Assembly (NCBI GenBank): GCA_025808555.1
Contig: CP075526.1
Coordinates: 2,160,712-2,224,711 of the forward strand
Direction: 5' to 3'
DNA: 64,000 bases
Origin: Anaerolineales bacterium
GTDB lineage: Bacteria; Chloroflexota; Anaerolineae; Anaerolineales; UBA11579
The notes below the pieces were generated by a model that saw only the letters and a list, made by a program, of their open reading frames with translations, had not been told where the DNA came from and ran no database searches. A program made the position numbers and the translations under genes. Below are positions 25,311 through 26,481 of the stretch, one piece after another. Within the stretch, counting starts at the first letter, position 1. Every line of letters begins with the position of its first letter.

Positions 25311-25338
25311 GGTTTCGATAAGTATTATTATCGCAAAT
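25311..25338 (+). other. dif-like Xer recombination site
   Basis: 28 bp laid out as an 11-bp arm GGTTTCGATAA, a 6-bp spacer GTATTA and an 11-bp arm TTATCGCAAAT. The inner parts CGATAA and TTATCG are an exact palindrome, and the right arm shares TTAT and AAAT with the XerD-type arm of known dif sites (TTATGTTAAAT). It lies 144 nt upstream of a Xer-type recombinase gene. Confidence 0.5.
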
Positions 25339-25341
25339 TAT

Positions 25342-25349
25342 GCTATACT
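25342..25349 (+). promoter_or_regulatory. Extended -10 promoter for the recombinase gene
   Basis: TGCTATACT (25341-25349) matches an extended -10 (TGnTATAAT). The dif-like site covers the place of a -35 box, so recombinase binding could block its own promoter. The leader to the ATG is about 125 nt and includes a small hairpin (GGCTTG...CAAGCC, near 25377-25394). Confidence 0.4.
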
Positions 25350-25482
25350 GGGGAGAGAGAGCTGGATTGGGTTTATGGCTTGAGCCAACAAGCCTATTCG
25401 CTCGTAGCGCGCCGAAACTTGATACAGAAACACTATAGTTCGACGAAAAGCGCACCGCAACCACAAAACGAGGCCAAAACTG

Positions 25483-26481
25483 ATGCCCACCCTGACCATT
25501 CAAGATGCTGTGGAACGATATCTGGACAGCGTAAAACTGGCCCGGAGCCATAACACGCTGCTGACCTACAAGAAGTCCATGCAGGCCTTCCTGGATTGTA
25601 TGCGGGCCGAGGGTCTGGCTGCAGATGCTCCTTTATCTACTCTAAACGAGGATGCGGTGGCCCACTTTGCAGCCTATTCAAAGAATAAGTCACCAGCGAC
25701 CGAGCGCCTACGCCTGCAGGCTGCGGCTGGCTTCTATGAGTTCCTGGCTGCTGAACGCCTGGCGGAACCCAACTTGCCGCGCGTACGCATGCTGATCCGC
25801 CAGCGCGGCCGGCGCCCTGGCCCCCGCCTGCCGCAGTTTCCACGTGAAGCAATAGAACAAATGTTGGACTATGCGGATACGCTTGACCGGTTGCCTGCCA
25901 AGGATGAAATTGAGGCACTGCGCAATAAGCGCGACAAAGCTTTCATCCTGACACTTGGCGAGACGGGCTTACGCGTGCATGAGGCGTGCAAGCTGACCCG
26001 TGGCGACATGCAGATGCAGGAAGGCAAAGCCATCGTGATCGGCAAAGGCAACCAGGAGGCGATGGTGCGCTTTTCGCGCCGGGCGATCGGCGCCATCCGC
26101 AGCTATCTGCAGGCCCGTGGCAGCCTGGACAGCGCCAGCGGCCGCCAGCTGGGCAGCCTGCCCCTCTTTGCCCGCCATGACAAAGGCGCCGGCAGCAAGA
26201 AGGTCAAAGCCATCACGCCCAGCACCGGGCGTAATATCATTGCCCGCCATGTGGCCTTGGCGCTGGGAGACGAGGCCAAAGGAACAATCTCGCCACACAG
26301 TTTCCGCCATTATTTTGTAACTGCGGTGCTGCGCGGCACTGGCGGCAACCTCAAGATGGCGCAGGAATTGGCGCGCCACAAGAACATCCAGGTCACGCAG
26401 CGCTACGCTCATCTAAGTGATGATGAGTTGGACCGTGGCTATTATGAAGTCTTTGAAAATTCGGATAATCGCAGCGACTAG
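25483..26481 (+). CDS. Tyrosine recombinase of the XerC/XerD type
   Basis: 332 residues: N-terminal SAM-like core-binding domain (about 5-100) and catalytic domain with Arg164 in ETGLRVHEA, Lys188 in IGKGNQ, His272-x-x-Arg275 in SPHSFRHYF, His299 in LARHKN and the nucleophile Tyr308 in QRYAHLSD. All catalytic residues are present. GAGG lies 10 nt before the ATG. No phage or transposon genes lie near, which favours a chromosomal role such as dimer resolution at the dif-like site upstream over an integrase, though a relic integrase cannot be ruled out. Its stop directly abuts the stop of the convergent GGDEF gene. Confidence 0.88.
   Translation: MPTLTIQDAVERYLDSVKLARSHNTLLTYKKSMQAFLDCMRAEGLAADAPLSTLNEDAVAHFAAYSKNKSPATERLRLQAAAGFYEFLAAERLAEPNLPRVRMLIRQRGRRPGPRLPQFPREAIEQMLDYADTLDRLPAKDEIEALRNKRDKAFILTLGETGLRVHEACKLTRGDMQMQEGKAIVIGKGNQEAMVRFSRRAIGAIRSYLQARGSLDSASGRQLGSLPLFARHDKGAGSKKVKAITPSTGRNIIARHVALALGDEAKGTISPHSFRHYFVTAVLRGTGGNLKMAQELARHKNIQVTQRYAHLSDDELDRGYYEVFENSDNRSD

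Follow-up and report, generated by a model that had tools for sequence, protein, structure and literature searches.

A candidate dif site beside a Xer-type recombinase gene in an Anaerolineales bacterium

A 28-bp sequence just upstream of a tyrosine recombinase gene in the chromosome of an Anaerolineales bacterium raises the question of whether it is the dif site of this organism, and whether the neighbouring gene encodes the recombinase that acts on it. We analysed the window, a stretch of 64,000 nt (positions 2,160,712–2,224,711), within a genome that forms one contig of 2,243,062 bases and is 95% complete. From sequence comparisons, we consider it highly likely that the palindrome is dif and that the gene downstream, here named XerX, encodes the acting recombinase (Table 1).

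Table 1 Features of the candidate dif locus, in window coordinates
Feature	Position	Strand	Description
dif-like recombination site	25311..25338	+	arms 11-6-11: GGTTTCGATAA GTATTA TTATCGCAAAT; unique, conserved, at skew switch
Candidate extended -10 of the recombinase gene	25341..25349	+	TGCTATACT, adjoins the site; putative function, from sequence
Gene of Xer-like tyrosine recombinase, XerX	25483..26481	+	332 aa; domain matches, invariant catalytic residues, predicted fold nearest XerA/XerD

The sequence-only reading of this DNA had proposed an 11-6-11 site with palindromic inner halves, lying 144 nt before a recombinase gene, and both the sequence and the coordinates hold. The site has the layout of dif, being 28 bp long and partly palindromic with two 11-bp arms around a 6-bp centre; its inner halves, CGATAA and TTATCG, are perfect inverted repeats, and 144 nt separate its end at 25338 from the recombinase ATG at 25483. 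With both strands read, the window contains the arm pattern once, against an average of 0.02 in dinucleotide shuffles. Uniqueness, which that reading had put forward as a check, extends to the whole genome: like dif, the site is present in a single copy at up to three mismatches on the 2.24-Mb contig, and a reversed control pattern gave 0 matches in the same genome-wide search. A de novo palindrome score that used no arm consensus placed a different short palindrome first in the window; this score separated real sites poorly from shuffles, and the consensus-arm score was used instead.

The same reading had expected the replication terminus near this locus if the site was real, and GC skew bears this out. 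Within the window, skew is positive before ~26 kb and mostly negative after it, and the cumulative skew reaches its maximum at 25384, 46 nt past the site. Across the genome, sampled coarsely as 40 stretches plus the window, cumulative skew has its minimum near 1.08 Mb and its maximum at ~2.19 Mb; when 20 stretches per side are averaged, the sampled profile switches most strongly at the site, and 70–120 kb off when 10 are. Four further single-contig chromosomes (G030, G216, Pelolinea submarina and G448), each sampled as 20 stretches at fixed distances from the site, show the same switch. Pooled over these four, skew is positive to the left of the site in 36 of 40 stretches and negative to its right in 35 of 40, with left and right values of 10/10 and 10/10 in G030, 9/10 and 9/10 in G216, 9/10 and 10/10 in P. 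submarina, and 8/10 and 6/10 in the noisy G448. The two stretches nearest the site are opposite in sign in all four. As is typical of dif, the site thus lies at a skew switch, located by sampling that is coarse outside the window.

We also considered dnaA as a marker of the origin and rejected it. It lies at 1.006 Mb in this genome, 0.474 of the circle from the site, and the corresponding fractions are 0.155 in G030, 0.229 in G216, 0.420 in P. submarina and 0.395 in G448. Because this distance ranges from 0.155 to 0.474 over the five chromosomes, although skew flips at the site, dnaA is an undependable origin marker in this group, and in G030 and G216 the replication origin is probably located away from it. 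For these mostly uncultured bacteria, where dnaA marks the origin unreliably, the site could provide a sequence tag of the terminus. In four of the five genomes, the KOPS-like octamer GGGNAGGG is oriented towards the site (96/24, 47/20, 34/10 and 45/18), G030 being the exception (34/37); we do not use this motif as proof.

The XerX product matches the Phage_integrase domain and an N-terminal SAM-like domain. An alignment of 22 orthologues shows no variation at R164, K188, H272, R275, H299 and Y308, which would be the catalytic residues characteristic of the family; with this assignment the recombinase has the full catalytic set ascribed to it earlier. Its top NCBIfam match is XerC, at 125 bits against a cut-off of 335; XerD (119 against 330), archaeal XerA (105 against 220) and XerS (67 against 267) are likewise far below their cut-offs, and no XerH model is among the NCBIfam matches. 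Among solved structures, the XerX profile matches XerA 5hxy at 1e-26 and XerH 5jjv weakly (E 9e-9). By sequence and fold together, the nearest are XerA 5hxy, then XerD and archaeal 4a8e, the structure model (mean pLDDT 78, last 34 residues poor) being used for fold class only. Judged by these matches, XerX is distinct from XerS and, as far as tested, from XerH, and forms a separate lineage.

If site and recombinase form one system, they should be found together in relatives. When named genomes were scanned with the window protein, 147 relatives came up; the best 80 of them, whose titles all name Chloroflexi/Chloroflexota, Anaerolineae or genera of these, were kept and make up 81 loci together with the window. 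Calling a site at a score of at least 17 of 22 against the consensus arms, within 700 nt upstream of the orthologue, we found one at 74 of the 81 loci, compared to 1 of 81 in a shuffled control; conservation beside orthologues, on which the sequence-only reading had staked its claim, is thus evident. Seven loci fall below the cut. Scanning 700 nt upstream of the gene revealed no recognisable site in L051, L052, L068, L082 and L104, while L103 has only 52 nt of sequence before the gene, and L121, at a score of 16, by eye carries a CTTAA-type site. The majority consensus is ATGCTTTCGATAA-GTATTA-TTATCGAAAGCAT, and a minority of loci have cores of the CTTAA-N6-TTAAG type.

A draw of 298 genomes from the class Anaerolineae, 30 of which have an XerX orthologue above 300 bits, gave a similar association. 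Of its 20 genomes of the order, 13 have a strong XerX (>300 bits), and 12 of these contain the site at 0–1 mismatch, compared to 0 of the 7 others; in the thirteenth, G256, the site upstream of the gene is a diverged one. The seven genomes of the order with no strong XerX orthologue are G114, G182, G205, G246, G266, G283 and G292. Searching the whole class at 2 mismatches matched 25 of 298 genomes, including 14 of the 20 in the order. Outside it, 11 of 278 genomes matched, ten of them with 2 mismatches and one with 1, which is no more than chance given that the reversed control matched 16 of 278; the 2-mismatch matches in G246 and G283 of the order were also ascribed to chance and left out of the site counts.

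Outside the order, the arms differ by lineage. Palindromic 11-6-11 sites of the GATTCGGATAG-N6-TTATCCGAATC type lie upstream of XerX in all eight members drawn from family f13, and sites of the ACTTCGCAAAA-N6-TTTTGCGAAGT type (GCAAAA) in 3 of 7 loci of family f48, with the GCAAAA site found at 0 of 2 loci in family f10; the GGATAR and GCAAAA arm consensus was derived from the loci then counted, and these counts are descriptive. A GATAA-type match in L330 (score 16) is probably spurious. On the recombinase tree, site type changes 14 times, compared to a shuffled mean of 29.2, a number as low being reached in 0 of 200 shuffles. This strong structuring implies that recombinase and arms are inherited and change together, and a Chloroflexota system with a gene-linked site and lineage-varying arms would offer a natural series for studying recombinase-site co-evolution.

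Such co-inheritance of orthologue and site across many families speaks against XerX being an old mobile-element integrase with the palindrome as its attachment site, at the terminus by chance. Mobile elements are drawn to dif regions according to the available text of PMC2731167, and further integrases are frequent in relatives, but neither the window nor the rest of the genome contains a second site, and the genes neighbouring XerX are TauE, GGDEF and CNNM genes. We regard this explanation as extremely improbable.

The position of the promoter introduces another possibility. TATACT at 25344–25349, five nt past the site, has TG in front and, by the usual consensus, is presumably an extended -10; inspection upstream of it showed no good -35. 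Of the earlier claim of a promoter at the site edge, the -10 beside the site therefore stands and a good -35 was not seen. TGCTATACT directly follows the site also in L047, with a variant in L050, and TTGA begins at the site edge in 25 of the 74 loci with a site, 24 of which have TATAAT 16–17 nt past the hexamer. Since the promoter lies against the site, occupancy of the site should compete with transcription, and autoregulation by XerX is suggested, only by this promoter overlap.

Promoter and site being so close, the palindrome might be an operator or promoter element only, bound by XerX or another regulator for transcription control without recombination. However, it has the 11-6-11 layout of dif, coincides with the skew switch of five chromosomes, and is found in a phage contig in which XerX was not found (see below). 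Furthermore, G274, an exception to the linkage, has its site at C1:287396 and its XerX gene at C1:218813, 68 kb apart, the site being flanked by phosphatase-like and MFS-like genes (named by reading translations) with no recombinase gene beside it. That G274 keeps its site so far from the gene speaks against a pure operator role, and we deem this alternative very unlikely.

The contig in question (L340/L346, IMGVR_UViG_3300037424_000176; 24.4 kb) is that of a tailed phage with terminase, portal, scaffold, head and endolysin genes. Between its portal and head genes, L340:3016-3042 reads ATGGTTTCGATAA-CTATCA-TTATCGAAAGCAT, a fully symmetrical XerX-type site; neither an integrase, in a scan of 17 ORFs, nor XerX was found in the contig. 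Its gene content and site make it a candidate Xer-exploiting phage of Anaerolineales, resembling LME-1 of Legionella, which uses the host Xer system (PMC9765430, available text). This match in the first viral scan and L345 in the second were the longer ones. L345, with 3.8 kb of sequence available and a single, weak family match, was set aside as evidence. The other three of the four hits in the first scan (L338, L339 and L341) are located within long open frames, L338 and L341 sharing one stretch, and were taken as chance.

If the site is dif, does XerX act on it alone? We found one other PF00589 gene in the genome, L003:1126-2040 (G000 C1:416 kb), adjoining tilS (named from translation). It has TGIKKGE in place of TGLRxSE, and lacks the box II His, the second His/Trp and the Tyr. 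Its 30 best relatives, from within the order and beyond it, all have the same losses, and an L003-type match occurs in 292 of 298 Anaerolineae genomes, where weak matches may be other recombinases. L003 is perhaps a DNA-binding relic of XerC/XerD. With this sole other homologue lacking catalytic residues, XerX is the one intact candidate recombinase in the genome, which is 95% complete, and no second Xer is intact; this holds strictly for this genome only. The count of other XerC/XerD genes, suggested earlier as a check, therefore comes to one, which looks catalytically dead. Of the earlier proposal of a single-recombinase system such as XerS or XerH, the single intact recombinase is upheld; identity with XerS is not borne out by the NCBIfam cut-off, nor, as far as tested, is identity with XerH.

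Rather than acting alone, XerX could need L003 at the site as a DNA-binding or regulatory partner. Apart from XerX, the genome has no tyrosine recombinase homologue but L003, its type is matched nearly throughout the class with the reservation just given, and the shared catalytic losses of its 30 best copies imply that something preserves the rest of the protein. Nevertheless, the arms of the site are near-identical, with perfect symmetry over 13 bp in 8 of 81 loci, a pattern that a single binder would be expected to show, and the paralogue is present also in genomes without a strong XerX, which together make an obligate partner quite unlikely. With arms so alike, a single recombinase can serve both, and a XerC/XerD pair would be unneeded.

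FtsK is also encoded. This genome has two FtsK-type proteins with gamma domains (G000 C1:1252476 and C1:704441), as do most genomes of the order that were searched, and the gamma domain is found in 56 of 61 of these; what was found for FtsK control of Xer recombination is the presence of the encoded domain. By analogy with the Xer family, two XerX molecules would occupy one site, one on each of its near-identical arms, and the second site of a chromosome dimer would be brought alongside the first. Tyrosine-mediated cleavage would then allow strand exchange across the 6-bp centre, converting the dimer to two monomers, with FtsK directing recombination at the site and XerX on the site dampening its own promoter.

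Single-recombinase systems are already known as XerS, XerH and XerA (PMC5357621) and XerL (PMC9765430), as described in the available texts, and XerX with its site very probably constitutes a further one, in Chloroflexota, its function being predicted. Like difSL/XerS of streptococci and lactococci and difH/XerH of Helicobacter and Campylobacter (PMC5357621 and PMC2731167, available texts), it combines one recombinase with a gene-linked site at the terminus; XerS, however, has 356 aa and acts on an atypical 31-bp site, and XerH has 354–362 aa (PMC5357621), whereas XerX has 332 aa and a 28-bp site with a 6-bp centre. With dif/XerL of Legionellales it shares one recombinase, long inverted-repeat arms and a mobile element with a dif mimic, but xerL lies >400 kb from dif in L. 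pneumophila, as compared by description (PMC9765430), against 144 nt here. Archaeal dif/XerA also pairs one recombinase with a 28-bp site and provides the best solved-structure matches, but reportedly operates independently of FtsK (PMC5357621), while the present genome does encode FtsK gamma. The XerCD system of most bacteria has the same unique 28-bp 11-6-11 site with TAA..TTA inner ends at the skew switch, but employs two recombinases, and XerX is below the cut-offs of both.

In the open-licence literature, we found no report on Anaerolineae XerC/dif or Chloroflexota chromosome dimer resolution, and for a Chloroflexi Xer recombinase only Kono et al. 2011, the available text of which predicts dif within Chloroflexi in three Dehalococcoides only (PMC3025954); among the papers listed by a broader search, none combined all of its three subjects. 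XerX bears on the question, raised in the available text of a 2017 review (PMC5357621), of whether single recombinases derive from XerCD. A wider scenario, which we think unlikely as a whole, would have the site-linked single recombinase replacing XerCD in Anaerolineae, with dif as the switch of the recombinase's own promoter so that occupancy of the terminus site sets the recombinase level, the XerC/XerD-type protein persisting class-wide as a dead DNA-binding segregation helper, and the system having its own dif-exploiting phages.

As a separate observation, CP070764.1, from a relative, carries another relic of this kind, a degenerate XerD-like gene (L132:1147-2031) without the box I Arg and the Tyr, which adjoins a purine nucleoside phosphorylase gene (named from translation).
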